The notes beneath the pieces were generated by a model. That model worked only from the letters and a program-made list of their open reading frames with translations, made no database searches and was not told where the DNA came from. Shown one piece after another: positions 39,841 to 58,461 of a stretch of DNA of 64,000 nucleotides (positions are counted from its first letter, which is position 1; each line of letters opens with the position of its first letter). Source of the DNA: Streptomyces sp. NBC_00286 (lineage in GTDB: Bacteria; Actinomycetota; Actinomycetes; Streptomycetales; Streptomycetaceae); NCBI RefSeq assembly GCF_036173125.1, contig NZ_CP108054.1, forward strand, positions 9,679,501 to 9,743,500. Direction: 5' to 3'. The translations under genes and the position numbers were made by a program.

Positions 39841-39846
39841 GGCCCG

Positions 39847-40268: not shown

Positions 40269-40388
40269 CCGCGACGTCGCCCTGCTCAACGACGCGGCGG
40301 CTCTACGGCTGACGTCGCTGCGAAGTGTGCAGTGTGCGTTGCGGACGTCAGTCCGCTGTGCCGCTCAGCAGGGCTTCGAGCTCGGTAG

Positions 40389-40645: not shown

Positions 40646-40720
40646 GACTCCCCCTCGTTCACGAGGAGAAGGAAGTCAACCGGTGGATCCCGGCCTCCGT
40701 CCGTCAGCGCCCCGACGGAC

Positions 40721-40855
40721 TTAACTCGTCACCCGCCTTTCCTGTTCGGTGCGCAGGGCGTGCTCGCGGATGAGGGGCCGTAACGCCCGTACGCGTTCCA
40801 CGAGTTCGGCATCGCTGCGAGGTGCGGTGGGACGAGGTGCGGACGACACAGCCAT
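40721..40855 (-). pseudogene. N-terminal stub of an acyl-CoA-dehydrogenase/HsaA-like gene
   Basis: An ATG at 40855 with GGGAGG 8 nt upstream begins a 44-codon ORF (MAVSSAPRPTAPRSDAELVE, then RVRALRPLIREHALRTEQER) that looks like the first helix of acyl-CoA-dehydrogenase-fold monooxygenases such as HsaA. It ends abruptly in TAA at 40721-40723. The intact ribosome site but missing 90 percent of the gene points to a deletion whose edge lies at the old insertion element. Confidence 0.6.
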
Positions 40856-40955
40856 GGACGACGACCTCCCGGCACGACGAATCATCACCGTGACCCGGAT
40901 CGCCGGACACTGTCAACGCCCCTTTACGCCACGGGTGTTGAAGCCAGGCGAACCG

Positions 40956-43034: not shown

Positions 43035-43381
43035 CCCTCGCACCGCCTCAGGTCCTCGCGGCACACCGTTCCACGCGCCGACTGTCCCACTCTTATCGCG
43101 GCCACGCTGTCCTCCGGCATCACCTTCGTCTTTCTCCACCATCCCTCAACACAGCACCGGCTGTCCGGCGAAGACGCCGGGAGAGCAAGGGAGATCACGG
43201 CCGGACCGGCGACGCCTCGTAGCAGATCACCGCATACGCCACGATCCGCCGCCCCGGCGTGATGACGCTTCGGGCCCGCGATGTGGGGGAGCCGACGTGA
43301 CTTTCGTGACCTGGGCCATTTCTCCCCGGCGAGCGGCGGGCTACCGTTCTGCTCCCCACCCCCGGTGATTGCGGACGGCCC
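43035..43381. other. divergent intergenic region
   Basis: A spacer of 347 bp between the phosphatase and a hypothetical gene. It may include up to 36 extra N-terminal codons of the phosphatase (start at 43142). A small hairpin CCGGCG-AAGA-CGCCGG lies at 43165-43180. No further gene or clear operator was seen. Confidence 0.4.
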
Positions 43382-43909
43382 GTGCACGCAGAACTCTCCC
43401 CGGTCATAGCGGCGACCGCTCAGTGGCTGACGTGTGCGTATCCGCCGGGCGGCGGTGCGCTGGACGCCGCGCTCTGCGAGGCGCAAGCCCGGCAGGCCGT
43501 GACCGTCGCGGCGTGGCTGCGCTATCCGACACCGATGGACGCCGCGCTCGTCGGCGTCGCGGGACCCGGAGGCTCCGGCCGGCTCGACTGGATCACGGGA
43601 GCGGAGGGGGCCGCGGCCGACGACGCGGACGGGTACGCGTGGCGGACCTGGGTGGACGAGGTCGTGGCCAGCTGGGCGGCCTGCCTGCTCACCGACCCGC
43701 AGCTGGCCGGGCAGGCGGTGACCGCGCTCGCCGACTCCAGCCACACGGCCTCGGCTCCGGCCGAGTTCCGCCGCCTGACCGCACCCGACGACCGCGACCG
43801 GCGCGCGGCAGCGCTGCTGCGCCACCCCGACCTCCTCGCGCCGATAGCCGAGCTGCACCACGCGGACCTCCTCGACCGACTGCGGCCCGGGCAAGCGCTG
43901 AGCGCCTGA
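43382..43909 (+). CDS. hypothetical protein, Streptomyces type
   Basis: A 175-residue acidic, Ala-rich, mostly helical protein with no motif I recognise (MHAELSPVIAATAQWLTCAY, later DDADGYAWRTWVDEVVASWA). There is no signal peptide or membrane segment. The GTG start at 43382 is supported only by coding bias and the frame start. It stands alone between the phosphatase (divergent) and the heptose cluster, with a weak hairpin (CTGCCC-GA-GGGCAG) 30 bp after the stop. Function unknown. Confidence 0.65.
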   Translation: MHAELSPVIAATAQWLTCAYPPGGGALDAALCEAQARQAVTVAAWLRYPTPMDAALVGVAGPGGSGRLDWITGAEGAAADDADGYAWRTWVDEVVASWAACLLTDPQLAGQAVTALADSSHTASAPAEFRRLTAPDDRDRRAAALLRHPDLLAPIAELHHADLLDRLRPGQALSA

Positions 43910-44400
43910 AACAGTCGTAGATGCACCGACTGCCCGAGGGCAGGCATGCTCCTGGGGCAGTTGGGGACTCGGTGTGGCATGTCGAGCACCAAGCGAATCG
44001 ATGCCGCGAGCCGCAGGCCGTGCGCGAAGACGGCGAACGGTCCTCCGGCTGACGGGAGGCGCAGAGGACCGCGCTCAGGGCCCCTGCCCACGCCGCTTGC
44101 CCTTCGCTCGACCCCGAGTCGGTGACGCGCGGCCCGGCAGCCAATGCGTCCGTCTCCGGCTCCGACGACGGCAGCCCACAGTCCATCGACCTCGCTGTGA
44201 CAGCGCGGGGGGTGGACCGTCCGACCGGCGCCGGGACTCGGCCGTCGCTCTCCGTGCGTCACCCGAATGCAGTACACCACCGAGCCCGTGACGCCCCCGC
44301 GGCGGACGCTGATCGAGAGCTCGACGGCCTTCGGCCACGTCAGGAGCCCGGAGGCGAAGGACCGGGGGGCGATACGCCGTCGCCTACAGAGGAGATCTAC
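43910..44400. other. leader region of the heptose-glycan cluster
   Basis: A spacer of 490 bp without a convincing gene. It begins with a weak hairpin and ends with the AGGAG ribosome site of the UXS-like gene. An in-frame extension of that gene to 44122 lacks codon character and a ribosome site. The promoter of the cluster should be here; no consensus was assigned. Confidence 0.5.
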
Positions 44401-45375
44401 ATGAGCACCGATCTCGCCCGGAACTGGGACCATGCCGTCGTCACCGGCGGCGCGGGCTTCGTCGGTTCGCACCTGTGCAGCGCTCTGCTGGACTCCGGCA
44501 CGGCGGTGACCTGCGTGGACGACTTCAGCACCGGCCGGCCCGAGAACGTGGCCGCGCTGCTCGACCGTCCCGGTTTCACCCTCGTGCGAGCCAACGTCTC
44601 CGAGGGACTCACCGTCGAGCGGCCCCCCGATCTCGTACTGCACTTCGCCTCCCCGGCGTCCCCCGCCGACTACCTCCGGCTGCCCCTGCACACCATGGAG
44701 ACCGGCAGCCTCGGCACCCGCAACGCCCTGGAGCTCGCCCACGCCAGCGGAGCCCGCTTCCTCCTCGCGTCCACCTCCGAGATCTACGGCGACCCGCAGC
44801 AGCACCCCCAGGACGAGCGGTACTGGGGCAACGTGAACCCGGTCGGACCGCGCAGCGTGTACGACGAGGCCAAACGGTTCGGTGAGGCGCTGACCACCGC
44901 GCACGCCGAGACGCACGGCACCGACACCGGCATCGTGCGGCTGTTCAACACGTACGGCCCGAGGATGCGCGGTCACGACGGCCGCGCGGTTCCCACCTTC
45001 GTACGGCAGGCGCTGGACGGCGTACCCCTCACCGTCACCGGAGACGGACGCCAGACCCGCTCGCTGTGCTACGTCGACGACACCGTGCGCGGCATCCTCG
45101 CCGCGGCGGCACACGGTATGCGCGGCCCGGTCAACCTCGGCAACCCCACCGAGATCACCATGCTCGAGCTGGCCCGGCTCATCATCGAACTCACCGGATC
45201 CCGCTCCCAGATCAGCTTCATCGGACGCCCCACCGACGACCCCGCCGTGCGCTGCCCGGACATCACACTGGCCCGCGACAAGCTCGCCTGGGAACCGAGG
45301 GTGAGCGCCGAAGAAGGCCTGCGCCGCACCATCGCCTGGTTCCGCGAACGGGCGACCGCGACCTCCGGCCACTGA
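44401..45375 (+). CDS. NAD-dependent sugar-nucleotide decarboxylase/dehydratase (UXS-like SDR)
   Basis: A 324-residue extended SDR. It shows the NAD motif VVTGGAGFVGSHL, the HFASPASPADY loop, the catalytic pair LLASTSEIYGDP and YDEAKRFGEAL (YxxxK), and FNTYGPRMRGHDGRAVPTF plus RSLCYVDD. These blocks resemble UDP-glucuronate decarboxylase (UDP-xylose synthase). The ATG has AGGAG at 6 nt. As first gene of the cluster it probably supplies a second nucleotide sugar. It is not an HldD-type heptose epimerase by motif, though that was considered. Confidence 0.85.
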   Translation: MSTDLARNWDHAVVTGGAGFVGSHLCSALLDSGTAVTCVDDFSTGRPENVAALLDRPGFTLVRANVSEGLTVERPPDLVLHFASPASPADYLRLPLHTMETGSLGTRNALELAHASGARFLLASTSEIYGDPQQHPQDERYWGNVNPVGPRSVYDEAKRFGEALTTAHAETHGTDTGIVRLFNTYGPRMRGHDGRAVPTFVRQALDGVPLTVTGDGRQTRSLCYVDDTVRGILAAAAHGMRGPVNLGNPTEITMLELARLIIELTGSRSQISFIGRPTDDPAVRCPDITLARDKLAWEPRVSAEEGLRRTIAWFRERATATSGH

Positions 45376-45465
45376 ACCGGCGCACAGCGAACGCCCTCCC
45401 ACCGCCCCCCGTAAAACGCGGCGCCGCCTTCGCCCCGACCCGCCGAACGACCCGGGACTCGACCC

Positions 45466-47133
45466 ATGCGCATCCTCGGAATCAACGCACTCCTCCACGA
45501 CCCCGCCGCCGCCCTCGTGATCGACGGCAGGACCGTCGCCGCCGCGGAGGAGGAGCGGTTCTCCCGGCGCAAACACGGGAAGCGGCCGGTGCCGTTCTCC
45601 GCCTGGGAACTGCCGGAGAAGGCTGCCGCCTGGTGCCTGAAACGGGCCGGGCTGCGCCCGCAGGACCTCGACGCCGTCGCCTACTCCTTCGACCCGGAAC
45701 TCGCCCGGCCCGCTGAATCCATGGGCCTCGACGACCCCTGGGACCATCTGCGGCTGACGTACGCACGCGAGGCCCCCGGCTTCCTCAAGACCGCGCTGCC
45801 CGGACTCGACCCGGCCATCGTCCGCTTCGTACCGCACCACATGGCCCATGCCGCGTCGAGCGCCTTCGCCGCGCCCGACGCCGAGCCGTCCTCGGTACTC
45901 GTCCTGGACGGCCGCGGGGAACGGGCTTCGCACCTGGCCGCGTACCGGATACGGGACCGGCTGGCAGCCCTGCACGCCCAGGAACTCCCGCACTCCCTCG
46001 GACTCGTCTACGAGGAACTCACCGAACACCTCGGATTCCTGCGCTCCTCCGACGAGTTCAAGGTGATGGCCCTCGCCTCACACGGCACCCCGCGCATGCT
46101 GCCCGAGCTGCGGCGCCATGTGTATCCCACGGGCGACGGCGGATTCCACGCCACCGCCGTGCCCTGGCACGAACTGTGCGCACCCCGCGCCCCCGACGAG
46201 CCCTGGACACAGGACCACGCCGATACGGCCGCCAGTGCCCAGGCCGTACTGGAGGAGACCCTGCTCGACCTCGTCCGCTGGCTGCACGGCAAGACGCACC
46301 ACAGCACACTCACCCTCGCCGGAGGCGTCGCCCTCAACTGCGTCGCCAACACGCGGATCGCCCGCGAGGGCCCGTTCTCCCGGGTGTGGGTGCAGCCCGC
46401 GGCCGGTGACGCCGGTACGGCGCTGGGCGGCGCGCTGCTGCTCGCCGCGGACGGCGGGGACGAGCCGGACCCCATGTTCGGGGCCGACCTGGGACGGGAC
46501 TGGACGGACGCGGAACTCGGCGCCTGGCTGAAGACGGCCGCCGTGCCGTTCGACCGGCCGCCCGACATCGCGGCGACCGTGGCCCGCGCCGTGGCCGACA
46601 ACCAGATCGTCGCCTGGTTCCAGGGGCGCTCCGAGTACGGCCCCAGGGCGCTCGGACACCGCTCGCTGCTCGCCCACCCCGGCCATGCGGGCAATCTGGA
46701 GCGGCTCAACGACGTCAAGGGACGCGAGCAGTTCCGGCCGGTCGCGCCGATGGTGCTCGCCGACCGGGCCGCCGAGATCTTCGACGGGCCGCTGCCGAGC
46801 CCGTACATGCTCTTCGTCCACGATGTGGCCGAGCCTTGGCGCGAGCGCATCCCGGCCGTCGTGCACGTCGACGGAACCGCCCGCATCCAGACCGTAGATC
46901 CCGCCCGGGAGCCGCTGGTGGCCCGCATGCTCGGCGAGTTCGAGCGGCTCACCGGTCTGCCCGTGCTGGTCAACACCAGCCTCAACACGGCGGGCCGGCC
47001 GATGGTCGACGACCCGCGCGACGCACTGGAGTGCTTCGGCTCCTCGCCCGTCGACCTCCTGGCCATCGGGCCGTACGCGATCCGGCGCGAGGCCTTCTTC
47101 CGCTCCGGCCCGGCTGAAGGGGGCGAGCGATGA
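45466..47133 (+). CDS. NodU/CmcH-family O-carbamoyltransferase
   Basis: A 555-residue enzyme that moves a carbamoyl group from carbamoyl phosphate to a sugar hydroxyl via carbamoyl-adenylate. Both domains are intact: the N-terminal Kae1-like part (ILGINALLHDPAAALVIDG, VAAAEEERFSRRKHGKRPV, VPHHMAHAASSAFAAP) and the YrdC-like C-terminal part (FQGRSEYGPRALGHRSLLAH, later LVNTSLNTAGRPMV). Its stop overlaps the next start (ATGA at 47130). Its place with heptose genes suggests a carbamoylated heptose or xylose in the final glycan. Confidence 0.92.
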   Translation: MRILGINALLHDPAAALVIDGRTVAAAEEERFSRRKHGKRPVPFSAWELPEKAAAWCLKRAGLRPQDLDAVAYSFDPELARPAESMGLDDPWDHLRLTYAREAPGFLKTALPGLDPAIVRFVPHHMAHAASSAFAAPDAEPSSVLVLDGRGERASHLAAYRIRDRLAALHAQELPHSLGLVYEELTEHLGFLRSSDEFKVMALASHGTPRMLPELRRHVYPTGDGGFHATAVPWHELCAPRAPDEPWTQDHADTAASAQAVLEETLLDLVRWLHGKTHHSTLTLAGGVALNCVANTRIAREGPFSRVWVQPAAGDAGTALGGALLLAADGGDEPDPMFGADLGRDWTDAELGAWLKTAAVPFDRPPDIAATVARAVADNQIVAWFQGRSEYGPRALGHRSLLAHPGHAGNLERLNDVKGREQFRPVAPMVLADRAAEIFDGPLPSPYMLFVHDVAEPWRERIPAVVHVDGTARIQTVDPAREPLVARMLGEFERLTGLPVLVNTSLNTAGRPMVDDPRDALECFGSSPVDLLAIGPYAIRREAFFRSGPAEGGER

Positions 47134-48215
47134 CGGCGTACGGAGACGGAGAGGGGGCGGTGGCGGACGACGCCTCGTACGCCGTCGTGATCCCCACCCT
47201 GGGGCGGCCCAGTCTGTCCGCGTGTCTGCGCGCGCTCGCCGAAGCGGGTGGCCCGCGGCCGGTGCGCGTGGTTCTCGTCGACGACCGCCCGCGGACCGGC
47301 GGCGCACCCCTCTCGGCCGACGTCCCGGTGTCGCTGCGTTCGGTCACCACCGTCGTACGGGGCCGCGCCCGCGGACCGGCCGCCGCCCGCAACACGGGGT
47401 GGCGGGCGGCGGGCCGCGGGCCCTGGATCGTCTTCCTCGACGACGACGTGGTGCCCGGCCCCACCTGGGGTGACGACCTGGCCCTCGACCTCGCCGGAGC
47501 GACCTACCGGACCGCCGGGATCACCGCCCGCATCCGCGTCCCGCTGCCGACCGACCGCAGGCCCACGGACTGGGAACGCAACACCGCCGGGCTCGCCACC
47601 GCGCGCTGGATCACCGCCGACATGGCGTACCGGCGCGAAGCGCTGGAGGCCGTCGGCGGATTCGACGAACGGTTCCGGCGCGCCTTCAGGGAGGACGCGG
47701 ACCTGGCCCTGCGGGTACTCGCGGCGGGCTGGACGCTGACCGCCGGGGCCCGCACCACGACCCACCCGGTACGTCCGGCCGACCGCTGGATCTCCGTACG
47801 GCACCAGGCGGGCAACGCCGACGACGTACTGATGACCCGGCGGCACGGCCGCGACTGGTGGAGCCGCGCGGATGCCCCACGGGGCCGACGGCCACGGCAC
47901 CTGGCGGTGACGGGAGCGGCCGTCGCGGCCGTCTCCTGCGCCCTCGCCGGCAGGCACCGCGCCGCTCTAGCCAGCGGCGCCGCCTGGCTGGCCGGGACCG
48001 CCGAGTTCGCCCTGGCCCGGATCGGCCCGGGCCCGCGGACCCGCGACGAGCTCGTCACCATGACCCTGACCAGCGTGCTCATACCGCCAGCCGCCACCTG
48101 GCACTGGCTGCGCGGGCAGGTGCGGCACCGCGCGACGCCACCGCTGCGCCCGTACGAGTCCGCCGAACCGCCGCGCACACCGCGGGAGCCGGCCCAGGAA
48201 CGGGTGCGCCCATGA
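47130..48215 (+). CDS. glycosyltransferase family 2
   Basis: A 361-residue GT-A glycosyltransferase. The UDP-sugar fold is seen in YAVVIPTLGRPSLSACLRAL, AARNTGWRAAGRGPWIVFLD followed by DDD (metal-binding DxD), and GGFDERFRRAFREDADLALR (acceptor/base region). A C-terminal hydrophobic section (AVAAVSCALAGRHRAALASG and onward) may be a membrane helix pair. Start and stop overlap the neighbours by 4 nt (ATGA), so it is in the middle of one coupled operon. Acceptor unknown. Confidence 0.88.
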   Translation: MTAYGDGEGAVADDASYAVVIPTLGRPSLSACLRALAEAGGPRPVRVVLVDDRPRTGGAPLSADVPVSLRSVTTVVRGRARGPAAARNTGWRAAGRGPWIVFLDDDVVPGPTWGDDLALDLAGATYRTAGITARIRVPLPTDRRPTDWERNTAGLATARWITADMAYRREALEAVGGFDERFRRAFREDADLALRVLAAGWTLTAGARTTTHPVRPADRWISVRHQAGNADDVLMTRRHGRDWWSRADAPRGRRPRHLAVTGAAVAAVSCALAGRHRAALASGAAWLAGTAEFALARIGPGPRTRDELVTMTLTSVLIPPAATWHWLRGQVRHRATPPLRPYESAEPPRTPREPAQERVRP

Positions 48216-48901
48216 CCGGCCCGTGGCTCTTCGACGGACCGGCGGCCCCGCCGTCACGGGGGGAGGCCGACGGCGCCCTCCCAGCGGCGATCCTCTTCGA
48301 CCGGGACGGCACGCTGGTGGCAGACGTGCCTTACAACGGCGACCCTGCACGGGTCGAGCCGATGCCCACCGCGCGGGATGCGGTCGAGTCGGTACGCGCC
48401 CTGGGCATCCCGACCGGGGTCGTCAGCAACCAGTCGGGCGTGGCCCGCGACTTGCTGACGTACCGTCAAGTCGAGGCCGTACGCCACCGCGTGGACGACC
48501 TCCTAGGCCCATTCGCTGTCTGGGCAATCTGCCCACACGGCCCCGACGACGGCTGCGCCTGCCGCAAACCGGCACCGGGCCTGATCCTGGCCGCCTGCGA
48601 CCGCCTCGGCGTCCCCACCGAACACACCATCGTCATCGGCGACATCGGCGCTGACATGACCGCCGCCCACGCAGCGGGAGCCCACCGCGTACTGGTACCG
48701 ACGCCAGTGACCCGCCCCGAGGAGATCGAGGCCGCTGAGTCCACGGCTCCGGACCTGCTTGCGGCGGTGCGGCTGGTGTTGGGCCTGGGGCTCGACGGGA
48801 CGACGCCCGCGCACCCGGGTGACGGCACGTACGCAGCCTGCCCGGACCATGCACCGTCCGGCGCCCACCACGTCGGCCGTACCGCAGGGAAGGCGCAATG
48901 A
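48212..48901 (+). CDS. gmhB: D,D-heptose 1,7-bisphosphate phosphatase (GmhB-like HAD)
   Basis: A 229-residue HAD-IIIA phosphatase. It has the DxD motif AILFDRDGTLVADVPYNGDP, motif II GVVSNQSGVARDLLT, the zinc loop CPHGPDDGCACRKP that marks GmhB-type enzymes, and motif IV VIGDIGADMTAAHAAGA. It removes the 7-phosphate from heptose-1,7-bisphosphate between the two HldE reactions. The ATG at 48212 overlaps the GT2 stop (ATGA). The C-terminal 40 residues are not conserved. Confidence 0.88.
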   Translation: MTGPWLFDGPAAPPSRGEADGALPAAILFDRDGTLVADVPYNGDPARVEPMPTARDAVESVRALGIPTGVVSNQSGVARDLLTYRQVEAVRHRVDDLLGPFAVWAICPHGPDDGCACRKPAPGLILAACDRLGVPTEHTIVIGDIGADMTAAHAAGAHRVLVPTPVTRPEEIEAAESTAPDLLAAVRLVLGLGLDGTTPAHPGDGTYAACPDHAPSGAHHVGRTAGKAQ

Positions 48902-49989
48902 CCAGCTCCCGCCCCCTTCCCCGCACCCTCGTCGTGCGGCTCGACAGCGCCGGTGACGTGCTGCTCGCCGGGCCCGCCGTGCGTGCCGTTGCGGCCGGGT
49001 CCTCGTACACCGCCCTCTTGTGCGGGCCCCAGGGAGTGCAGGCGGGGCGGCTGCTGCCGGGGGTGGACGAGGTACTGACGTACGACGCTCCCTGGGTCGG
49101 GTTCGAACCGGCGCCGGTGTCGCGCGCGGAGACGCGCCGGCTGCTGGACACGCTGTCGGCGCGCCGTTTCGACCGGGCTCTCGTGCTTGCCTCGTATCAC
49201 CAGAGTCCGTTGCCGATCGCGCTGCTGCTGAAGCTGGCCGGAGTCGGCTGGACGGCGGCCGACAGCGAGGACTACCCGGGAGCCCTGCTCGATCTGCGGC
49301 ATCGCAGGCTGCCCCACCGGCACGAAGCGCTCGCGGCGCTCGACCTGGCCCGGGACGCCGGGTTCTCCCTGCCGCCCGGCGACGACGGGGCGTTGTGTAT
49401 CGAGGCACCGCCCGACACCACGCACCTCACCGGACCCGAGCCGTACGTGGTGCTGCATCCCGGAGCCGCCGTACCGGCCCGTGCATGGAGTCCCGCCCGG
49501 GCGGCCCGGGCCGTCGCCGCCCTCGCCGCCGAGGGATACCGGGTCGTGGTCACCGGTGGGCGCGCGGAGCGGGACCTGACCGCGCAGGTCGCCGGACGCC
49601 ACGCGCTGGATCTCGGCGGGGCCACCGATCTGCGGGAGCTGGCGGGCGTACTGGCCGGGGCGCGGGTGGCGGTGACCGGGAACACCGGGCCCGCGCATCT
49701 CGCCGCCGCGGTCGGGACGCCGGTGGTCTCCCTGTTCGCGCCGGTGGTTCCGGCGGAGCGCTGGGCCCCGTACGGCGTGCCGCATGTACTGCTCGGCGAT
49801 CAGGACGCGCCGTGCGCGGACAGCAGGGCCCGCCACTGCCCGCTGCCGGGGCACCCCTGCCTCGACGGGATCGGCGACGCCGAGGTGCTCGCCGCCGTGG
49901 CGGCGCTCGACGAGGACCGCACGGAGGCCGACGCGGAGCCGCCCCGCGAGGGCGGCGGCTCCGAAACGGAACGAGGAGCGACCGTATGA
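48898..49989 (+). CDS. glycosyltransferase family 9 (heptosyltransferase-like)
   Basis: A 363-residue GT-B enzyme of the family that transfers heptose from ADP-heptose. N-terminal TLVVRLDSAGDVLLAGPAVRA resembles the RxxxLGD region of WaaF/WaaC; the C-terminal donor half has YVVLHPGAAVPARAWSP and the GNTGPAHLAAAVGTPVVSLF block that contacts ADP-heptose. A second GT9 gene closes the cluster. The ATG overlaps the gmhB stop by 4 nt, and its own stop overlaps the next start. Confidence 0.88.
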   Translation: MTSSRPLPRTLVVRLDSAGDVLLAGPAVRAVAAGSSYTALLCGPQGVQAGRLLPGVDEVLTYDAPWVGFEPAPVSRAETRRLLDTLSARRFDRALVLASYHQSPLPIALLLKLAGVGWTAADSEDYPGALLDLRHRRLPHRHEALAALDLARDAGFSLPPGDDGALCIEAPPDTTHLTGPEPYVVLHPGAAVPARAWSPARAARAVAALAAEGYRVVVTGGRAERDLTAQVAGRHALDLGGATDLRELAGVLAGARVAVTGNTGPAHLAAAVGTPVVSLFAPVVPAERWAPYGVPHVLLGDQDAPCADSRARHCPLPGHPCLDGIGDAEVLAAVAALDEDRTEADAEPPREGGGSETERGATV

Positions 49990-50951
49990 ACATCCTGTTG
50001 TGGCATGTGCACGGATCCTGGACGACGGCCTTCGTCCAGGGCCCGCACACATACCTCGTTCCCGTCACACCGGCCCGCGACCCGGACGGCCTCGGCCGCG
50101 CCCGTACGTACTCCTGGCCCCCCGCGGTACATGAAGCGACCCCCGAGGAACTGCGCGACACGCCAGTGGACCTGGTCGTTCTTCAACGGCCGCACGAGCT
50201 GCGACTCGCCGAGCAGTGGCTCGGCGGACGCCGCCCCGGGCGGGACATCCCAGCCGTGTACCTGGAACACAACGCACCGGACGGCGACGTCCCCCGCACC
50301 CGGCACCCGTTCGCCGACCGGGACGACCTGACCCTGGTCCACGTCACCCACTTCAACCGGCTGTTCTGGGACTGCGGCTCCACCCGTACCGAGGTGATCG
50401 AGCACGGCATCGTCGACCCGGGACATCAGTACACCGGCCGGCTCGCCCGCGCGGCCGTCGTCGTCAACGAGCCGGTGCGGCGCGGCCGTTACACCGGTAC
50501 GGACCTCCTCCCCGCCTTGTCCGAGGCGGCACCGCTGGATGTCTTCGGCATGCGTACCGAAGGCCTCGCCGAGCATCTCGGCATCCCACCCGACCGCTGC
50601 CGCACCGCCGATCTGCCCCAGAGCGAGCTGCACGCGGCCCTCGCGGAGCGCCGCTGCTATCTGCACCCGGTGCGCTGGACGTCCCTCGGCCTCTCCCTGC
50701 TGGAGGCCATGCACCTGGGCATGCCCGTCGTCGCCCTCGCCACCACCGAGGCCGTCGAGGCGGTGCCGCCCGTCGCGGGCACCCTGTCCACCCGCCCCGA
50801 CGTGCTCGCCCGGGCCGTACGCCACTACATGGAGAACCCCGCCGCCGCGGCCGAGGACGGCGCACGGGCCCGCCAGGCGGCTCTCGGACGGTACGGGCTC
50901 AAGCGTTTCCTGGACGACTGGGAGCGCGTGATGACGGAGGCGCGCGCATGA
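49986..50951 (+). CDS. GT-B glycosyltransferase
   Basis: A 321-residue glycosyltransferase whose second half shows the donor site of GT4-like enzymes (TEVIEHGIVDPGHQYTG, then SLGLSLLEAMHLGMPVVALA). The first half begins MNILLWHVHGSWTTAFVQG and contains LVVLQRPHELRLAEQWLG, a pattern often seen in actinobacterial clusters. Both ends overlap the neighbours by 4 nt (ATGA). Donor and acceptor are unknown; it probably adds one sugar to the heptose-containing glycan. Confidence 0.85.
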   Translation: MNILLWHVHGSWTTAFVQGPHTYLVPVTPARDPDGLGRARTYSWPPAVHEATPEELRDTPVDLVVLQRPHELRLAEQWLGGRRPGRDIPAVYLEHNAPDGDVPRTRHPFADRDDLTLVHVTHFNRLFWDCGSTRTEVIEHGIVDPGHQYTGRLARAAVVVNEPVRRGRYTGTDLLPALSEAAPLDVFGMRTEGLAEHLGIPPDRCRTADLPQSELHAALAERRCYLHPVRWTSLGLSLLEAMHLGMPVVALATTEAVEAVPPVAGTLSTRPDVLARAVRHYMENPAAAAEDGARARQAALGRYGLKRFLDDWERVMTEARA

Positions 50952-52216
50952 CCTACGTCAGCACACCCACCGACACGTCCCCCGGCCCGCTCGGCCCCGA
51001 CACCATGGACATCGCCCTCGTCTCCGAGCACGCGAGCCCCCTCGCCGTACTCGGCGGCGTCGACGCGGGTGGCCAGAACGTACACGTCGCCTGCCTCGCG
51101 AGCGCACTCGCCGACCGCGGCCACCACGTCACCGTCCACACCCGGCGCGACTCGCCCGACCTGCCCGACCGGGTGCCGCTGCGCGAAGGCGTCGAAGTGC
51201 ACCATGTACCCGCGGGGCCGCCGGAGCCGATCCCCAAGGACGAACTGCTGCCCCACATGGGCGCCTTCGGCCGCCACCTCGCCAAGACCTGGCGGGACCG
51301 GCCGCCCGACCTGGTGCACTCGCACTTCTGGATGTCGGGCCTCGCCTCCCTGTGGGCGGCACACCGGCTGCGGCTGCCGATGCTGCACACGTACCACGCG
51401 CTCGGCACGGTCAAGCGACGCCACCAGCAGGACGCCGACACGAGCCCGCCCACCCGGATCGCCTGGGAGACGGAGGTGGGCCTCGGCTGCAACCGGGTGC
51501 TCGCCACCTGCCGCGACGAGGTCGTCGAACTGGAGCGGATGGGCATACCCGCCGAGCGGATCACCATCGTGCCGTGCGGCGTCGACACCGACCGCTTCAC
51601 GCCCCGAGGGCCGGTCGCCGAGCGCGGCCCGTACCGCCACCAACTGCTCCAGCTGGGCCGCCTCGTCCCACGCAAGGGAGCCGCCGTCTCCATCGCCGCG
51701 CTGACCCGGCTGCCCGACACGGAACTCGTCGTGGTCGGCGGCCCCACGCCGGACCGGCTCGATACCGACCCCGAGGTGCGCCGGCTGCGCGAGATCGCCC
51801 GCGCGGGCGGAGTCGCCCACCGCGTCCGCTTCACCGGAGGGGTGTCCAGCGATGACGTGCCGCCGCTGCTGCGGGCCGCCGATGTGGTGCTGTGCCCCGC
51901 GGACTACGAGCCGTTCGGCATCGTGCCGCTGGAGGCGATGGCCTGCGCGAAGCCGGTCGTCGCCAGCGCCGTGGGCGGGCAGCTGGACACCGTCGCCGAT
52001 CCGGGCACCGGACGCCTCGTACCGCCCCACGATCCCGAGGCCCTCGCTCGCGCGACCGGGCAGCTCCTCGCCGACCCGGCGATGCGCGAGGCCTGTGGGG
52101 CCGCCGGCCGGCGCCGCGTACTGAGCCGGTACGGCTGGTCGCGGGTCGCGGCGGCCACCGAGGCCGCGTACTGCTCGGTGCTCGACGCCGCGCCCGCCGT
52201 GACGGGGGTGGTCTGA
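50948..52216 (+). CDS. glycosyltransferase family 4
   Basis: A 422-residue GT4 enzyme. Clear signatures are LGGVDAGGQNVHVACLASAL at the N-terminus, VHSHFWMSGLASLWAA, VPCGVDTDRFTPRG, LQLGRLVPRKG and the EX7E motif EPFGIVPLEAMACAKPVVAS. The ATG overlaps the upstream stop. It is followed by 98 bp, the longest gap within the heptose gene run, before gmhA. The glycine-rich N-terminus resembles sucrose-synthase/MshA-type transferases, but the substrate is unknown. Confidence 0.9.
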   Translation: MTYVSTPTDTSPGPLGPDTMDIALVSEHASPLAVLGGVDAGGQNVHVACLASALADRGHHVTVHTRRDSPDLPDRVPLREGVEVHHVPAGPPEPIPKDELLPHMGAFGRHLAKTWRDRPPDLVHSHFWMSGLASLWAAHRLRLPMLHTYHALGTVKRRHQQDADTSPPTRIAWETEVGLGCNRVLATCRDEVVELERMGIPAERITIVPCGVDTDRFTPRGPVAERGPYRHQLLQLGRLVPRKGAAVSIAALTRLPDTELVVVGGPTPDRLDTDPEVRRLREIARAGGVAHRVRFTGGVSSDDVPPLLRAADVVLCPADYEPFGIVPLEAMACAKPVVASAVGGQLDTVADPGTGRLVPPHDPEALARATGQLLADPAMREACGAAGRRRVLSRYGWSRVAAATEAAYCSVLDAAPAVTGVV

Positions 52217-52314
52217 CACCCGTACTCGCCCCGATCCGACCGCCCGCAGCACCGTCGCACGAAGGAGGTGCGGGTCCGGCCGTCGTCCTCCACGACGCGG
52301 TACGCCCGATCAGC

Positions 52315-52944
52315 ATGACGGAATTCGCAGCGTCCCCCGCACTCGATGCCGCGCATCTGCACTGCCGGTCACTGCAGCAGGCGCTCGGCCGGTTCCGCCG
52401 GGACGGTCTCGGCCGGGTCGCGGAGTGGGGCGGCCGGCTCGCCGCCGCCCTGCCCGCCGGCGGCCGGCTGCTGGCCGCGGGCAACGGCGGCAGTGCCGCA
52501 CAGGCCCAGCATCTGACCGCCGAGCTGGTGGGACGGTACCGGCAGGAGCGGCCCGGCTATTCGGCCATCGCCCTGCACGCGGAGACGTCCAGCGTGACCG
52601 CCATCGGCAACGACTACGGGTTCGAGCACGTCTTCGCCCGGCAGGTGTCCGCCCACGGCCGCCCCGGAGATGTCCTCCTGCTCTTGTCCACGTCCGGCCG
52701 CAGCCCCCACCTGATCAGAGCCGCCGTGACGGGCCGTACGGCAGGGCTGCGCGTCTGGGCGATGACGGGGCCGCGGCCGAACCCGCTCGCGGAGGCCGCC
52801 GACGAGGCCCTGTGCATCGACGCCGACAGCACGGCGACCGTGCAGGAGGCCCACCTCGTCGCCGTACACCTCCTCTGCGAGTCTTTCGACGCGGCGCTCG
52901 CACCCGCCCCCAGCACGGTCGCCGCCCACCGGAGGGCATCGTGA
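52315..52944 (+). CDS. gmhA: sedoheptulose-7-phosphate isomerase (GmhA, SIS domain)
   Basis: A 209-residue SIS-domain protein that converts sedoheptulose-7-phosphate to heptose-7-phosphate, the first step of ADP-heptose synthesis. It shows LLAAGNGGSAAQAQHLTAEL and LLLLSTSGRSPHLIRA, both GmhA signatures. The ATG at 52315 lacks a clear ribosome site; GAAGGAGG lies 47 nt upstream at 52261-52268, and a TGA of another frame overlaps the ATG, so initiation may be unusual or start slightly upstream. The stop overlaps hldE (GTGA). Confidence 0.9.
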   Translation: MTEFAASPALDAAHLHCRSLQQALGRFRRDGLGRVAEWGGRLAAALPAGGRLLAAGNGGSAAQAQHLTAELVGRYRQERPGYSAIALHAETSSVTAIGNDYGFEHVFARQVSAHGRPGDVLLLLSTSGRSPHLIRAAVTGRTAGLRVWAMTGPRPNPLAEAADEALCIDADSTATVQEAHLVAVHLLCESFDAALAPAPSTVAAHRRAS

Positions 52945-54344
52945 ACGAACCGAAACCCCTCGTGGTCGTCGGAGACGTCCTGCTCGACGAGGACATCGAA
53001 GGCACCGCCACCCGGCTGTCCCCGGACGCCCCCGCCACCCCCGTCGTCGACGTCACCGGCGACCGGCGCCACCCCGGCGGAGCGGGCCTCGCCGCCGCAC
53101 TGGCGGCCCGGGGCGGTCGCGAAGTGACCTTGGTGACCGCCCTCGGCGACGACCCGGCCAGCGAAGCCGTACGCCGTGACCTGCGCGGCCGGGTCAACCT
53201 GCTGGAGCTCCCCCTCGACGGCACCCTGCCGGTCAAGACCCGCGTCCTGGCCAGCGGCCGTCCCGTGGTGCGCATCGACCGGGGCGGCGGCACGCCCGGC
53301 GAGCCGGACGACGCGGTACGGGACGCGCTGGCCCACGCTCACGCCGTACTCGTCGCCGACTACGGACGCCACACAGCGACCGCCGTAAGAGCCCATCTCG
53401 CCGCGGTCGCCCCCCGCACACCCCTGGTCTGGGACCCCCACCCCAAGGGCGACACGCCGGTGCCCGGAGCCCGGCTCGTCACCCCGAACGCGGCGGAGGC
53501 ACAAGCCCTGCGCCCCGGCGGCGACGAATCCCTGCGCGCGTACGCCGAGCGAGGCGCGGAACTCGCGGCCCACTGGCAGGCGGCGGGCGTCGCCGTGACC
53601 CTCGGGGAACGCGGTGTGCTGCTGACGAGGCCCGGCACCCGCACGCCGATGCTCGTCCCAGCGCCGTACCGGGCCACCGGCGACCCCTGCGGCGCGGGCG
53701 ACTGCTTCGCCGCGACCACGGCCGCGGCTCTCGCGGACGGGGCCCTCCCGGAGGAGGCCGTACAGCGGGCGGTCGCCGAAGCCGCCGCGTTCGTGTCGGC
53801 GGGCGGCGCCGGAAACCCGGCACTGTGGCGCACGGACTCCGCGTCCCGTCCCGAGGACGCGCCCGCCACCGACGCCTTCGCCGTCGCCGAACGCGTCCGG
53901 GCACGCGGCGGCACGGTGGTCGCCACCGGCGGCTGCTTCGACCTCCTGCACGCCGGCCACGTCGGCCTCCTGGAAAGCGCCCGGCGAATCGGCGACTGCC
54001 TCATCGTGTGCCTCAACTCCGACGCGTCCCTAGCCCGCCGCAAGGGCCCGGGCCGCCCCCTCACCCCGGAGCCGGACCGCGTACGGGTCCTCGCCGCCCT
54101 CGGCAGCGTCGACGCCGTAGCGGTCTTCGAGGAGGACACTCCCGAAGCATTGCTGAGCCGCCTGAAGCCCGACGTGTGGGTAAAGGGCGGCGACTACTCC
54201 GTCCAGGACCTGCCCGAGGCGGAGGTGCTACGCACCTGGGGCGGCCAGGCGCTCGTCCTGCCCTACCTCGACGGCCGCTCCACCACGCTGCTGGCCCGCC
54301 GGGCCGCGCGGGCGGCCGTGCCTGTGCGGATGCCACGGCCGTGA
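52941..54344 (+). CDS. hldE: bifunctional heptose-7-phosphate kinase / heptose-1-phosphate adenylyltransferase
   Basis: A 467-residue two-domain enzyme. The N-terminal PfkB-type kinase (about 1-310) has HPGGAGLAAALAARGG and DPCGAGDCFAATTAAAL; the C-terminal nucleotidyltransferase (about 330-460) has GGCFDLLHAGHVGLLESARR with the HxGH motif and WVKGGDYS. It makes heptose-1,7-bisphosphate and, after GmhB, ADP-heptose. The GTG start follows GGAGG at 5 nt. Whole-length fusion as in Gram-negatives; actinobacteria often lack it. Confidence 0.92.
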   Translation: MNEPKPLVVVGDVLLDEDIEGTATRLSPDAPATPVVDVTGDRRHPGGAGLAAALAARGGREVTLVTALGDDPASEAVRRDLRGRVNLLELPLDGTLPVKTRVLASGRPVVRIDRGGGTPGEPDDAVRDALAHAHAVLVADYGRHTATAVRAHLAAVAPRTPLVWDPHPKGDTPVPGARLVTPNAAEAQALRPGGDESLRAYAERGAELAAHWQAAGVAVTLGERGVLLTRPGTRTPMLVPAPYRATGDPCGAGDCFAATTAAALADGALPEEAVQRAVAEAAAFVSAGGAGNPALWRTDSASRPEDAPATDAFAVAERVRARGGTVVATGGCFDLLHAGHVGLLESARRIGDCLIVCLNSDASLARRKGPGRPLTPEPDRVRVLAALGSVDAVAVFEEDTPEALLSRLKPDVWVKGGDYSVQDLPEAEVLRTWGGQALVLPYLDGRSTTLLARRAARAAVPVRMPRP

Positions 54345-55375
54345 GCTCCGGGACGAGGCTTCGGGTGCTGGTGCTGCGCGCGCTGGGACTGGGCGATCTG
54401 CTGACCGCGGTGCCCGCCCTGCGGGCGCTGCGACGTCACTTGCCCGGTCACGAGATCGTCTTGGCCGCCCCCGAGCGGCTGGCCGAGCCGGCGGCGGCCA
54501 CCGGACTGGTGGACCGCCTGCTGCCGGCCTCCGGCCCCGGCCGGGCGGTGCCCGCGGACCTGGCCTGGGACGGGCCCCCGCCCGACCTCGCCGTGGACCT
54601 GCACGGCAACGGCCCTCAGAGCCATCAGCTGCTCCGTCGGCTGCGGCCCGGACGGCTCTTCGCGTACGCGCACCCGCAGATGTCCGACCTCTCCGGCCCC
54701 GCCTGGCAGCCCGACGAACACGAACGGGAACGCTGGTGCCGGCTCCTCCGCTGGTACGGCATCAAGGCGGACCCCGCTGACCTGCGCATCCCGCCGCCCA
54801 CGACCCCCTCCCCGGCCCCCGGCGCCATCGTCGTCCACCCCGGAGCCGACGCCGCCGCCCGCCGCTGGCCCAAGGAACGGTTCGCGGCCGTGGCGCGGGA
54901 GCTGCACCGCGGCGGTCACGAGGTCGTCGTGACCGCGGGCGGTGGCGAGGGGGCCCTGGCGCGCTTCGTGGCAACGGAGGCGGAGCTGCCGCCCGCCGCG
55001 GTGCTGGGGGGCGCCCGCGATGTGCCGTTCGATCAGCTGGCCGCGCTGGTTGCACGCGCCCGCTGCGTGGTGGTCGGCGACACCGGGCTCGCCCATCTGG
55101 CCACGGCGCTCGGCACTCCGTCCGTCGTCCTGTTCGGCCCGGTCGCCCCTCGCCTGTGGGGACCGCCCGCCGACCCACGGCACCGGGTGCTGTGGCATCC
55201 CGGGACCGACGACTCGCCCCGCCCCGGGGACGCGCACGGCCGGCACCCGGACGAACGGCTCTTGCGGATCACGGTCGACGAAGTCGTCGAGGCGGTACGC
55301 GAATTGCCGGAGCCTGACACGGACCCGTCGTACGAGCGGACGACGACGGCGCAGGGCCTACCGCCGTTGCCGTAG
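54341..55375 (+). CDS. glycosyltransferase family 9 (heptosyltransferase-like), second copy
   Basis: A 344-residue GT9 enzyme starting at GTG 54341, overlapping hldE by GTGA. The N-terminal RVLVLRALGLGDLLTAVPAL, AVDLHGNGPQSHQLLRRL and C-terminal IVVHPGADAAARRWPKERFA plus VVVGDTGLAHLATALGTPS are characteristic of heptosyltransferases. Together with the GT9 gene at 48898 it implies at least two heptose transfers or one heptose and one related sugar. It closes the cluster; no clear terminator follows. Confidence 0.9.
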   Translation: MSSGTRLRVLVLRALGLGDLLTAVPALRALRRHLPGHEIVLAAPERLAEPAAATGLVDRLLPASGPGRAVPADLAWDGPPPDLAVDLHGNGPQSHQLLRRLRPGRLFAYAHPQMSDLSGPAWQPDEHERERWCRLLRWYGIKADPADLRIPPPTTPSPAPGAIVVHPGADAAARRWPKERFAAVARELHRGGHEVVVTAGGGEGALARFVATEAELPPAAVLGGARDVPFDQLAALVARARCVVVGDTGLAHLATALGTPSVVLFGPVAPRLWGPPADPRHRVLWHPGTDDSPRPGDAHGRHPDERLLRITVDEVVEAVRELPEPDTDPSYERTTTAQGLPPLP

Positions 55376-55620
55376 AACTCGTACTGAACCCTGGTCCACG
55401 CACGGCGACGCCCCCCACTGCACGGCCGGCACACCCGCCACCATGAGACCTTCACCTCTGCGGCGAGCCGAGCGTGACGCCGAGCATCCCGTGGCCGCGT
55501 CACCGGCTAGAGCTTCGACCCCGCGACCCAGCCGCTGACCTGGGGCGACGACCAACTGGTCACCAGTACCACCCCGGGCGGGACCGGCAGCGGAACGCAG
55601 GCCGTGGCTGTCCGCACGCC
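55376..55620. other. spacer with possible gene relic
   Basis: The stretch 55503-55620 can be read as FDPATQPLTWGDDQLVTSTT and onward, which looks like a piece of a secreted protein, but it has no start and runs into the repeat array. Nothing else was recognised between the heptose cluster and the repeat. Confidence 0.3.
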
Positions 55621-55980
55621 GGGCGGACAGCCGGGACACTGGTCTCGGTCGCGTCCGGGGAGGCTCAGGCGGCGGTGTTCAGCCCGGGCGGCGCCGCACA
55701 CCGTGCCGGCCGGGCGGACAGCCGGGACACTGGTCTCGGTCGCGTCCGGGGAGGCTCAGGCGGCGGTGTTCAGCCCGGGACGCGCCGCACACCGTGCCGG
55801 CCGGGCGGACAGCCGGACACCGGTCTCCGTCGCGTCCGGGAAGACTCAGGCGGCGGTGTTCAGCCCGGGACGCGCCGCACACCGTGCCGGCCGGGCGGAC
55901 AGCCGGGCACCGGTCTCCGCCGCGCCCGCGAGGACTCAGGCCGCGGTGCTCAACCCGGGCCGCGCGCTCACGTCGCGTTC
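55621..55980. repeat. 91-bp tandem repeat, about four units, made of an MFS gene 3' end
   Basis: Units begin at 55621, 55712, 55803 and 55893 (spacing 91, 91, 90) with the shared start GGGCGGACAG. The unit nearest the MFS gene contains its stop codon and last codons (RPGLSTAA on the minus strand); the other units carry the same end as RPGLNTAA plus stop. Thus the gene's tail and downstream DNA were duplicated about three times. The first two units are nearly identical, the later ones diverged. Confidence 0.85.
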
Positions 55981-57306
55981 CTCGGTCCGGACGACCACCG
56001 GCTTAGCGGTCCGGCGTTCCCGGAGTACGTAACCCGCCCCGATCGAACCGGCGATGATCAGCCCTCCCGCCACGAGCGCCCCCCGCGCCCCCGCCAGCTC
56101 CATGAGGAGCCCCAGCGCAGGCGGCCCAGCGAGACCCCAGGCCGTACGGATGCTGCCCCAGACCCCGAGCACACGTCCCCGCAGATGAGCAGGCGGGTCG
56201 GTCTGCAGGACCGTAGTCCCGGCGGTGTCGGAGACGGACTCCACCACGGCCATCGGCAGGACGAGGACCAGCAGCAGCACGAGCGACGGCGACAGCCCCG
56301 CCACCGCCTGGAGCAGCCCGCCCGCCGCAGCCAAGGTCCCCACGAGCCGCACAGAGGGCCGCCGCAGCCGGGCACCCAGGACGGCGCCGACGATGCCACC
56401 GACGGCGAGAACAGTGGAGACCGTGCCGAACGCCCCGGCGCCCCCGGCGAGCGGCCCGGTGACGAGCACCGCCAGCGTGAGGCTGTAGTTCCGCCCGAAC
56501 ACCGCGCTGATCCCGGTCACGCCGGCCAGTGCGACCAGCCGCGGGCGGCGCATGAAGAACGCCAGCCCCTCCCGCATGGTCATGTCCTGACCCACGCTCT
56601 TGGACCCACGCTGAGCCGGAATCGCAGGAGCCGGAACCTCAGAACGCCGGGCCGCCTTGTAAACCGGCCGGAGAAACGGAATGACCGAGGCGACGAACAG
56701 AAAGGACACCCCGTTCGCGGCGTACGCGGCCGCCGTGCCGAAGAAGCCGACCGTCAGCCCGGCCAGCGCGGTACCGGCGAGCCGGCCCGCGTTGGACACC
56801 AGCGAGCCCACCCCGATCGCGGAGGGAACGTCCTCCGTACGTACGAGATCGTTGCCCAGCAGCGAGCACGCCGGCGCGTCGACCGTGGCGATGAGACCCG
56901 TAACGGCGGCCAGCACCATCAGCACAGGCACGTTCAGCTGATCGACCGCCACCAGGACGGCCGTCACGAACGCAACCAGGCCGAGCAGCGCCTGGCTGAC
57001 GCCCGCGGTCAGCTTGCGGGGCCAGCGGTCCACGGCCGCACCGCCGGCGAGGCTCATGAGCAGAGCGGGCGCGGCCTGCACCGACACGGAGAGACCCGTG
57101 GTGGCGGCGGAACCGGTGATCTGCAGGACCAGCAGGTTCTGCACCGTGAGCTGCATCCACGTACCGGCGTTCGACACGAGGTTCGCGACGGACCACCAGC
57201 GCATGCTGCGGTACTTCAGGGACCGCCACGGCGAACGGGACTCGCTCACGGGCGGCACATCGGTGGAGGCAGGGGCGGGCACGGGCGCGGAAGGAGAAGA
57301 AGACAC
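55936..57306 (-). CDS. MFS transporter (EntS/MFS_3-like)
   Basis: A 456-residue exporter-type MFS protein with 12 predicted helices and the MFS_3 pattern: WWSVANLVSNAGTWMQLTVQ at helix 1, the basic loop DRWPRKLTAG after helix 2, and DAPACSLLGNDLV in the middle. Similar proteins export siderophores or drugs. A GTG at 57306 starts the frame, without a strong ribosome site. The 3' end lies within the 91-bp tandem repeat. It is divergent from the SDR gene across 408 bp. Confidence 0.88.
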   Translation of the reverse strand: MSSSPSAPVPAPASTDVPPVSESRSPWRSLKYRSMRWWSVANLVSNAGTWMQLTVQNLLVLQITGSAATTGLSVSVQAAPALLMSLAGGAAVDRWPRKLTAGVSQALLGLVAFVTAVLVAVDQLNVPVLMVLAAVTGLIATVDAPACSLLGNDLVRTEDVPSAIGVGSLVSNAGRLAGTALAGLTVGFFGTAAAYAANGVSFLFVASVIPFLRPVYKAARRSEVPAPAIPAQRGSKSVGQDMTMREGLAFFMRRPRLVALAGVTGISAVFGRNYSLTLAVLVTGPLAGGAGAFGTVSTVLAVGGIVGAVLGARLRRPSVRLVGTLAAAGGLLQAVAGLSPSLVLLLVLVLPMAVVESVSDTAGTTVLQTDPPAHLRGRVLGVWGSIRTAWGLAGPPALGLLMELAGARGALVAGGLIIAGSIGAGYVLRERRTAKPVVVRTEERDVSARPGLSTAA

Positions 57307-57714
57307 AGTGAAGTACTCGAAAGACGAGTCCGGGGACTCAGGCGGAGGAATCGGCGGGAGCTCGGAATGCCGGCTGCGCTGCGCGGCCGCTCCACCGGAT
57401 CGGCGTCGCCCATCGTGGCAGACGGGACCGCCGAGTCAGGACAGACATCACTCCGTTTCGGTGCCGCAGGGGTGCGAAATCCCCGATCCCGTCGGGGAAT
57501 TGACGCTCGCCGTGGGGTTGATCACAGCACCCGAATACGCACATACGGCACGGACCGGATGCGGGCGGAGAGTGGCGGCGGCCACAGCCCCGTACCCGCT
57601 CCGCGGGCTAATCCGACATGCCGGGCCATTCCGTCACGGTCACAGTGGGACGTGAAGCGGTCGCCGAGCGTGCACCGCTGCATCCGGCCGGCACGACGAA
57701 AGGCAGAAGTGAAC
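57307..57714. other. divergent intergenic region
   Basis: A spacer of 408 bp between the MFS and SDR genes, with no convincing gene. A small imperfect palindrome ATCCCCGATCCCGTCGGGGA lies near 57480. It should hold both promoters; no operator could be assigned. Confidence 0.45.
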
Positions 57715-58461
57715 ATGGGCGGCGCAGTACAGGTCGATCTCCACGGCAAGCAGGCCCTCGTCACCGGCGGGGCACGAGGCCTGGGCGCCTCGATCACGCG
57801 GAAGCTGGCCGGAGCGGGAGCATCCGTACTGGTCGCCGACGTACGCAAGGACCTGGCCCAGGAACTCTGCGACGACCTTGCCCGCGCGGGCCGCGACGCA
57901 AGCTTCGTAGAGATGGACGTACGGGACGCCGACGCCGTCGCCGAGATCTTCCGGGACCTCGAGGAAACCGGGCAGCCGGTGGACGTGCTGGTCAACAACG
58001 CCGCCGTCGACGTCACGAAGCCGATCGAGCAGCTGACGGCCGACGAGGTGACACGGGTCGTCGCCACCAATCTGCTGGGGCCGATGTATCTGTGCCTGGA
58101 GACCTACCGGCGCATGGTCGCCCGAGGCGGCGGCCACATCGTCAATATCCTGTCCACGGCCGCGAACCGCACCTGGACCGAGGCCGGGCCCTACTCGGCG
58201 GGCAAGGCGGGGCTGCGCGCGTTCACCCACACCCTGTTCAAGGAGGCGCAGCGGGACTGTGTGGGGATCGGTGTCACGGGGATCATCGCCGGCGGCATGC
58301 ACACGCCGTTCATCCTCGACCGGTTCCCGGACGCCGACGTCTCGATGCTGCAGAGCCCCGACATCGTGGCCGACACCGTCCTGTACGCCCTGTCGGTCCC
58401 GTCCGGCAGCGCGGTGGCCGAACTCGTCGTCGTCCCGCGCAGGGAACCGTCCTGGCCCTGA
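57715..58461 (+). CDS. short-chain dehydrogenase/reductase
   Basis: A 248-residue classical SDR with the NAD(P) motif ALVTGGARGLGASI, an acidic residue at the end of strand 2 (LVADVRKD) that favours NAD(H), the NNAAVD motif, the serine in NILSTAANR and YSAGK as catalytic Tyr-Lys. The ATG at 57715 has AAAGG 12 nt upstream. Substrate unknown. A strong hairpin follows the stop. Confidence 0.9.
   Translation: MGGAVQVDLHGKQALVTGGARGLGASITRKLAGAGASVLVADVRKDLAQELCDDLARAGRDASFVEMDVRDADAVAEIFRDLEETGQPVDVLVNNAAVDVTKPIEQLTADEVTRVVATNLLGPMYLCLETYRRMVARGGGHIVNILSTAANRTWTEAGPYSAGKAGLRAFTHTLFKEAQRDCVGIGVTGIIAGGMHTPFILDRFPDADVSMLQSPDIVADTVLYALSVPSGSAVAELVVVPRREPSWP

Follow-up and report, generated by a model that had tools for sequence, protein, structure and literature searches.

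The subject of this study is a ten-gene operon at positions 44401-55375 of a 64,000-nucleotide stretch of DNA from Streptomyces sp. NBC_00286 (the window; positions 9679501-9743500 on a single contig of 9,853,519 bases), a site that we took as a chromosome arm. Overall, after comparing the operon with genomes of its genus and class, we propose that it is a cwg-type operon of a separate clade (clade A) and that its products make a short carbamoylated oligosaccharide from nucleoside diphosphate (NDP)-heptose, UDP-xylose and other sugars, which a neighbouring major facilitator superfamily (MFS) protein would export. We put the probability of this reading at roughly 0.6.

The relationship to cwg rests on a comparison with Streptomyces coelicolor (statements drawn from the PMC articles cited here refer to excerpts of those articles). 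The cwg promoter string published for S. coelicolor (PMC6767563) was searched in 392 genus genomes with at most two mismatches and was found in six of them, one match being exact (genome G246). The operon behind the exact match (locus L089) corresponds to the window operon gene for gene over all ten genes, in unchanged order and with identities of 60-75%. Two GT2 genes, cwgK and cwgL, come after them, and a divergent polysaccharide-deacetylase gene lies 5' of the L089 operon. Published annotations describe cwgB, cwgC, cwgE, cwgG and cwgJ as transferases, cwgD as a 'dehydratase', cwgH as a phosphoheptose isomerase and cwgI as a bifunctional synthase (PMC6767563, PMC5839063), and the L089 gene order agrees with those for cwgB-E and cwgG-J if the cwgD 'dehydratase' is the GmhB-like gene. 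By promoter, order and annotation, we took this 12-gene operon as S. coelicolor cwg (SCO6179-SCO6190). The window operon has the UXS-carbamoyltransferase-GT2-GmhB-GT9-GT4-GT4-GmhA-HldE-GT9 order of the type and, judged by order and protein identity, is a cwg-type operon collinear with genes 1-10 of the twelve; the cwgK/cwgL pair at the 3' end is not in it. Since the same order repeats in dozens of loci, the set is more than a chance grouping. HldE was found in 136 of the 392 genus genomes (E <= 1e-30), and the statement in the initial annotation that related sets exist in some Streptomyces genomes is thereby borne out. Its remark that the product is not established also holds, as the cwg product is undescribed in the open-licence PMC literature searched.

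In an HldE tree (71/129 rows) and a carbamoyltransferase tree (54/141 rows; a quick method without bootstrap), the window falls in clade A, the sister of the cwg clade (clade B). Both clades lie within one genus clade of the carbamoyltransferase tree, and both can occur in one genome (for example, G124 and G334). Sorting loci by 70% HldE identity mislabels L082, L099, L101, L102 and L104-L106, which are clade A in one or both trees; therefore, the remaining, B-like class (45 loci, with the MFS gene in 10 and genes 10-K-L in 31) is not purely clade B. Ten of 139 locus rows (L069, L072, L083-L088, L096 and L112) have no labelled HldE and stand outside the clade counts.

The ten open reading frames (ORFs), all on the + strand and chosen by codon-position GC, have junctions of 90, -4, -4, -4, -4, -4, 98, -4 and 20 nt, so that the single direction and the prevalence of 4-nt overlaps (6/9 junctions) described initially were confirmed. 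Pfam and NCBIfam profiles identified, in order, an extended short-chain dehydrogenase/reductase (SDR), a carbamoyltransferase (PF02543 and PF16861), a GT2 glycosyltransferase, a HAD-IIIA/GmhB-like protein, a GT9 protein, a GT4-like protein, an MshA-like GT4 protein, a SIS/GmhA protein, a PfkB plus CTP_transf protein (HldE) and a second GT9 protein. Eight of the ten genes had been named before, and the GT2, GT4 and GT9 calls agree with the domain profiles; the UXS-like SDR and the carbamoyltransferase had been left out.

Gene 1 (cwgA-like, 44401-45375) encodes a predicted UXS-type NDP-glucuronate decarboxylase that would supply UDP-xylose. Its nearest solved structure is human UDP-glucuronate decarboxylase UXS1 (2b69, E 4.5e-95), and it keeps the TSE.YG, Y...K and QTR motifs, as do most relatives (TSE.YG in 116/123 and 26/26; in such pairs the first figure covers genus loci and the second mostly class-level loci, for proteins of at least about 43-45% identity, with the window itself included and with the same-genus loci L181, L209 and L212 in the second set where matched). 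An assignment of gene 1 as HldD was rejected, with a score of 63.6 against the HldD cut-off of 274.6 and UXS1 as the closest solved relative. No HldD was found within the operon, to which this search was confined, in line with the initial annotation. In five class-level loci (one checked), a UDP-glucose-dehydrogenase-family gene adjoins the set, which fits a UXS acting on UDP-glucuronate. Gene 2 (cwgB-like, 45466-47133) encodes a putative O-carbamoyltransferase of the NodU/TobZ/GdmN type, matching the solved structures of novobiocin carbamoyltransferase (9s2t, E 3.2e-83), TobZ and GdmN.

Three genes would provide the heptose donor. Gene 8 (cwgH-like, 52315-52944) encodes GmhA, the predicted sedoheptulose-7-phosphate isomerase (1tk9, E 6.4e-40), a SIS fold with its Glu and His motifs present and with STSG.S in 120/120 and 25/26 relatives. 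Gene 9 (cwgI-like, 52941-54344) encodes HldE, the predicted heptose-7-phosphate kinase/heptose-1-phosphate nucleotidyltransferase (5x9q, E 4.9e-35; HldA 4e84, E 6.3e-16). It has both domains, with the GAGD (125/126 and 28/28 relatives) and H.GH (126/126 and 27/28) motifs, and its nucleotidyltransferase domain (domain II) reaches the equivalog cut-off (182.7 against 181.5). Of the best 80 HldE relatives in a contig search, 79 carry the title Streptomyces, the other being Actinobacteria bacterium OV450. Gene 4 (cwgD-like, 48212-48901) encodes a GmhB-like putative heptose-bisphosphate phosphatase (2gmw, E 1.1e-15), whose HAD-IIIA domain carries D.DGT and the Zn-type Cys/His motifs CPH and C.CRKP; only 21 and 6 rows were left for its motifs after the coverage rule. 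Profiles, solved relatives and conserved motifs thus favour the original GmhA, HldE and GmhB calls, though most equivalog cut-offs were missed. The window HldE contains YLDGRSTT, with Arg at position 5 of the STTR5 motif and Tyr at position 1; GRSTT occurs in 91/126 and 11/28 relatives and any G.STT in 99/126 and 19/28. This Arg has been reported to permit CDP- or UDP-heptose, with Phe or Leu at the published position 1 (Tang et al. 2024, via PMC11461863). Of the ADP-heptose route first proposed, the NDP-heptose pathway therefore stands as a prediction, whereas the nucleotide, given the STTR5 Arg, may be other than ADP. Single ORFs of 653-678 aa matching both GmhA and HldE were also seen in L095, L097, L098 and L100, none of them cwg-type; the SIS, PfkB and nucleotidyltransferase domains of the fused L095 ORF were confirmed.

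The remaining five genes encode glycosyltransferases (GTs): gene 3 (cwgC-like, 47130-48215) a GT2 protein, gene 5 (cwgE-like, 48898-49989) the GT9 protein termed GT9a, gene 6 (cwgF-like, 49986-50951) a GT4-like protein, gene 7 (cwgG-like, 50948-52216) an MshA-like GT4 protein by domain profiles and structure relatives, and gene 10 (cwgJ-like, 54365-55375) the heptosyltransferase-like GT9b (1psw, WaaF, E 2.2e-13). The donor-site Asp of WaaC contacts heptose. GT9b and its relatives keep the Asp aligned with the WaaF donor-site Asp (81/82 and 22/22). GT9a has Asn at this position (Asn pattern in 79/95 and 15/29, Asp pattern in 1/95 and 0/29), and its donor may therefore be other than heptose, a refinement of the initial suggestion that both GT9 enzymes can use heptose. 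No hydrophobic run over threshold was found in the three GT2s, GT4b or the carbamoyltransferase. A single run is present in each of GT9a (266-286), the GT4-like protein (234-252) and GT9b (1-19); we took these as buried core segments. No polymerase, flippase, priming transferase or ligase was recognised among the ten operon genes and cwgK/cwgL.

The initial annotation listed no export genes, which is accurate for 44401-55375 but misses an MFS gene (55936-57258, - strand; PF07690 and PF05977 above cut-off, TIGR00900 below its cut-off) that begins 560 nt beyond the operon end. It is present in 70 of the 79 loci with HldE identity of at least 70%, and in 63/67 of those of at least 12 kb. Among the 392 genomes, 109 have both the MFS protein (E <= 1e-90) and HldE, 27 have HldE only, two have the MFS protein only and 254 have neither. 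Of the 27, nine were not counted as cwg-type (L096, L097, L098 and L100 were read, five were judged by identity alone), and the MFS protein is absent from all nine. One of the two MFS-only genomes (G107) has a UXS-carbamoyltransferase-GT2 locus (L181), and the other (G102) has its MFS gene on an 8,987-base contig (L213). An unrelated control gene, the window's catechol dioxygenase gene, showed no association with HldE: it was found in 9/199 genomes, of which 4/9 have HldE against 79/199 overall (3/8 without the window's own genome). Because the MFS protein co-occurs with HldE and is often unlinked from it, it is likely the exporter of the product. In most genomes the MFS protein is close to full length at 66-85% identity, and its dN/dS is about 0.18 in clade-A loci. 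Beyond it, a classical SDR gene (57709-58461, + strand) is a probable accessory gene, present in 31/392 genomes, 30 of which also have HldE.

Twenty loci were fetched in which the MFS gene is away from HldE, and 18 of them have flanking genes in common with the window: 43535-43909 in 11, 58825-59415 in 10 and 59498-61226 in 14. These recurring flanks form an island on the arm that is distinct from the operon. By eye, its five recurring flank genes (58825-61226 and 43535-43909) include a hemerythrin-like gene, a phosphoesterase-like gene and three of unknown kind. A UXS copy of 47% identity lies beside the MFS gene in seven of the twenty (L141, L142, L144, L146, L147, L148 and L152), and that of L152 lacks the TSE.YG and Y...K residues. 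In L143, clade-A genes 1,2,3,5,6,7 stand beside the MFS gene without GmhA or HldE, and the same genome has a full clade-B operon (L115).

The gene set can also be divided. Among the 79 clade-A-like loci, 33 have genes 1-9 in a row, 11 have 1,2,3,7,8,9, six have 1,2,3,6,7,8,9 and nine have 1,2,6,7,8,9; the others end at contig edges or differ. Five genomes of the 1,2,3,7,8,9 type were searched for GT9, and each of the five encodes GT9b and a GT9a-like protein at another site; we therefore dropped the idea that the GT9 proteins are dispensable for heptose use. Their second loci hold genes 3,4,5,6,10,K,L (L214-L216), 3,4,5,6,7,10,K,L (L217) or 4,5,6,10 (L218). Clade-A and clade-B loci combined give 12/12 genes in four of the five genomes and 10/12 in the other, and no more than two genes are present twice. 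The chance that five random losses of twelve avoid six already lost is 0.0076, a figure that serves only as a guide given the relatedness of the genomes and block loss. Purifying selection acts on the genes remaining in pruned clade-A loci (median pairwise dN/dS 0.14-0.30 in 11 loci; 0.13-0.31 in seven loci with genes 1-9). Related bacteria can hold the set as two separate chromosomal loci, and in several genomes with both clades about one full set remains across the two; we infer that the clades are interchangeable. By the same rule the window operon, without K and L, should have them elsewhere in its genome. One whole-genome search with cwgL found the pair at contig positions 9308009-9309764, 414 kb from the operon (cwgK 75.9% and cwgL 81.2% identical); no other cwg genes were found in the 29 kb read around it. 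Upstream of the pair is a 263-aa SDR, 32% identical to the window SDR.

Relatives of the carbamoyltransferase (E <= 1e-100) occur in 42 of 226 class genomes, in 23 of 97 sampled genera. We examined 33 further loci: 29 around carbamoyltransferase genes outside the genus, two around such genes within it (L181 and L209) and two around MFS genes (L212 and L213). Among the 29, hldE is present in 27 and gmhA with hldE in 23, and the gene order resembles carbamoyltransferase-GT2-GT9a-GT4-GT4-gmhA-hldE-SDR-GT9b-UXS, with rearrangements.

From these data we provide a putative pathway. GmhA, HldE and GmhB would make NDP-heptose in the cytosol, and UXS would convert UDP-glucuronate to UDP-xylose. Five to seven cytosolic GTs (GT2, two GT9, two GT4 and the remote GT2 pair cwgK/cwgL) would assemble a short hetero-oligosaccharide, the carbamoyltransferase would place a carbamoyl group on a hydroxyl, and the MFS protein would carry the product out of the cell. 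More tentatively, and with less than even confidence, we suggest that this is an undescribed class-wide carbamoylated oligosaccharide of heptose and xylose, that its NDP-heptoses extend beyond ADP, that the MFS protein is a dedicated Streptomyces exporter and that reciprocal loss between paralogous loci has kept the set whole. If the heptose assignment is true, many Gram-positive soil bacteria would make NDP-heptoses for a purpose other than lipopolysaccharide; vertebrates sense NDP-heptoses through ALPK1 (PMC11461863). The exporter candidate, the defined 12+1 gene set and the two-locus genomes offer direct tests of the cwg product.

Several observations weigh against the main reading. GmhA (161.6 against 209.45, TIGR00441), GmhB (64.7 against 149.6), whole HldE (266.3 against 521) and its kinase domain (120.1 against 345) all fall below their NCBIfam equivalog cut-offs. 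The MFS/HldE and SDR/HldE figures are raw genome counts, uncorrected for shared ancestry; an MFS match is missing from 18 of the 127 genomes with a cwg-type HldE; and no MFS relative was found in the 29 loci read outside the genus, so that the transporter would be a Streptomyces feature. Against complementary gene loss, G334 has a pruned clade-A locus beside an intact clade-B operon and G124 has clade-A genes 1-9 plus a full clade-B operon. Regulation is a further point. Hong et al. 2002 made S. coelicolor cwg known as a sigma-E target (via PMC6767563); it was one of only two such targets known in vivo before the regulon study and is vancomycin-induced in a partly sigma-E-dependent manner, and the 21 genus-conserved targets in the excerpted PMC6767563 do not include it. 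The 400 nt upstream of window gene 1 yielded no sigma-E-like site, and sigma-E control of the window operon was rejected. The strict pattern was not enriched in clade-A-like upstreams (1/69 against 1.9 in shuffled sequence) and matched 3/46 others (against 1.0), two of the three being from one genome; the relaxed pattern matched 6/69 (against 5.2) and 8/46 (against 3.9), the 46 including loci picked by the promoter string.

Judged from sequence, the product may go either to the envelope or to the medium. A secreted small molecule, such as an antibiotic-like oligosaccharide of the septacidin or everninomicin kind, would suit export by an MFS protein in place of a Wzx or ABC flippase, a set of twelve genes with no recognised polymerase, ligase or priming transferase, and a patchy spread (136/392) together with an arm location. 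Septacidin of S. fimbriatus takes in heptose (PMC11461863), and a bifunctional decarboxylase that provides pentose donors is encoded in the everninomicin cluster (PMC10338323). However, carbamoyltransferase relatives in 23/97 sampled genera, the vancomycin-induced and partly sigma-E-dependent expression of S. coelicolor cwg (PMC6767563) and an operon without a recognised scaffold or regulator gene argue otherwise (a scan of window genes from 38962 to 58461 recognised no scaffold gene of the septacidin or hygromycin type), and we consider a secreted product somewhat unlikely. A lipid- or wall-linked polymer exported by general machinery, with the MFS protein incidental, is consistent with the envelope-stress regulation of S. 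coelicolor cwg (PMC6767563), the deacetylase gene adjoining that operon and the unlinked MFS gene of many clade-B genomes. It seems quite unlikely to us, given that no polymerase or flippase was recognised in the 12 genes and that the MFS protein occurs in only 2/256 genomes without HldE, one of which (G107) has UXS-carbamoyltransferase-GT2.

It is also conceivable that ancestry explains both the MFS-HldE co-occurrence and the split loci as relics, with an MFS gene that remains from a lost clade-A island and plays no present part in the pathway. The island flanks in 18/20 unlinked loci and the diverged UXS copy in 7/20 point this way, but the MFS protein has stayed near full-length and 66-85% identical in most genomes, its dN/dS in clade-A loci is about 0.18 and it was kept where the adjoining UXS copy diverged; we regard this explanation as unlikely. 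Finally, the substrate of the GmhA and HldE relatives could be a different sugar phosphate, with heptose absent from the glycan, as the scores under the cut-offs and locus L096 would allow. In L096 (G069:C1:9384000-9402000), too, a carbamoyltransferase and a GT9-like protein accompany an HldE-like protein, and the locus may resemble bleomycin clusters; the sugars of bleomycin are hexoses. Its HldE-like protein scores 351.8 bits to NCBIfam HldE, and it has long ORFs of 991 aa (edge-cut) and 871 aa. Conserved catalytic motifs, solved heptose enzymes among the nearest relatives of GmhA, HldE and GmhB, the joint occurrence of these three genes and the donor-site Asp of GT9b make a heptose-free glycan improbable.

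Three observations concern the window at large. An Rfam scan at gathering thresholds gave no match; ARAGORN called a tRNA-Ala (cgc) at 49887-49981 (- strand), antisense within GT9a, which is probably a spurious hit in GC-rich coding DNA; and two adjacent 438-aa ORFs (824-2140 and 2202-3518) with similar N termini are probably a tandem duplicate.

Compared with known systems, the window operon is closest to S. coelicolor cwg, from which it differs in its sister clade, its arm location, the lack of a detected sigma-E promoter and of an upstream deacetylase gene, its remote cwgK/cwgL pair and its adjacent MFS gene. With the Gram-negative GmhA-HldE-GmhB(-HldD) and WaaC/WaaF system it shares three pathway enzymes and two GT9 proteins, but it lacks HldD in the operon, misses most equivalog cut-offs and adds a UXS and a carbamoyltransferase. 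In Streptomyces, the heptose routes of hygromycin B and of septacidin, the latter named in PMC11461863, start from sedoheptulose-7-phosphate, as is predicted for the window operon. Unlike both, the window operon has no recognised scaffold genes beside it, and its relatives are class-wide. Its HldE resembles the STTR5 HENases (Tang et al. 2024, via PMC11461863) in the Arg at position 5 and differs in motif residue 1 (Tyr, not Phe/Leu); it may use NTPs other than ATP. By gene order and phylogeny, the window operon is thus a diverged second version of a known operon type, and a carbamoylated sugar chain with heptose and xylose is the predicted product of the conserved set.

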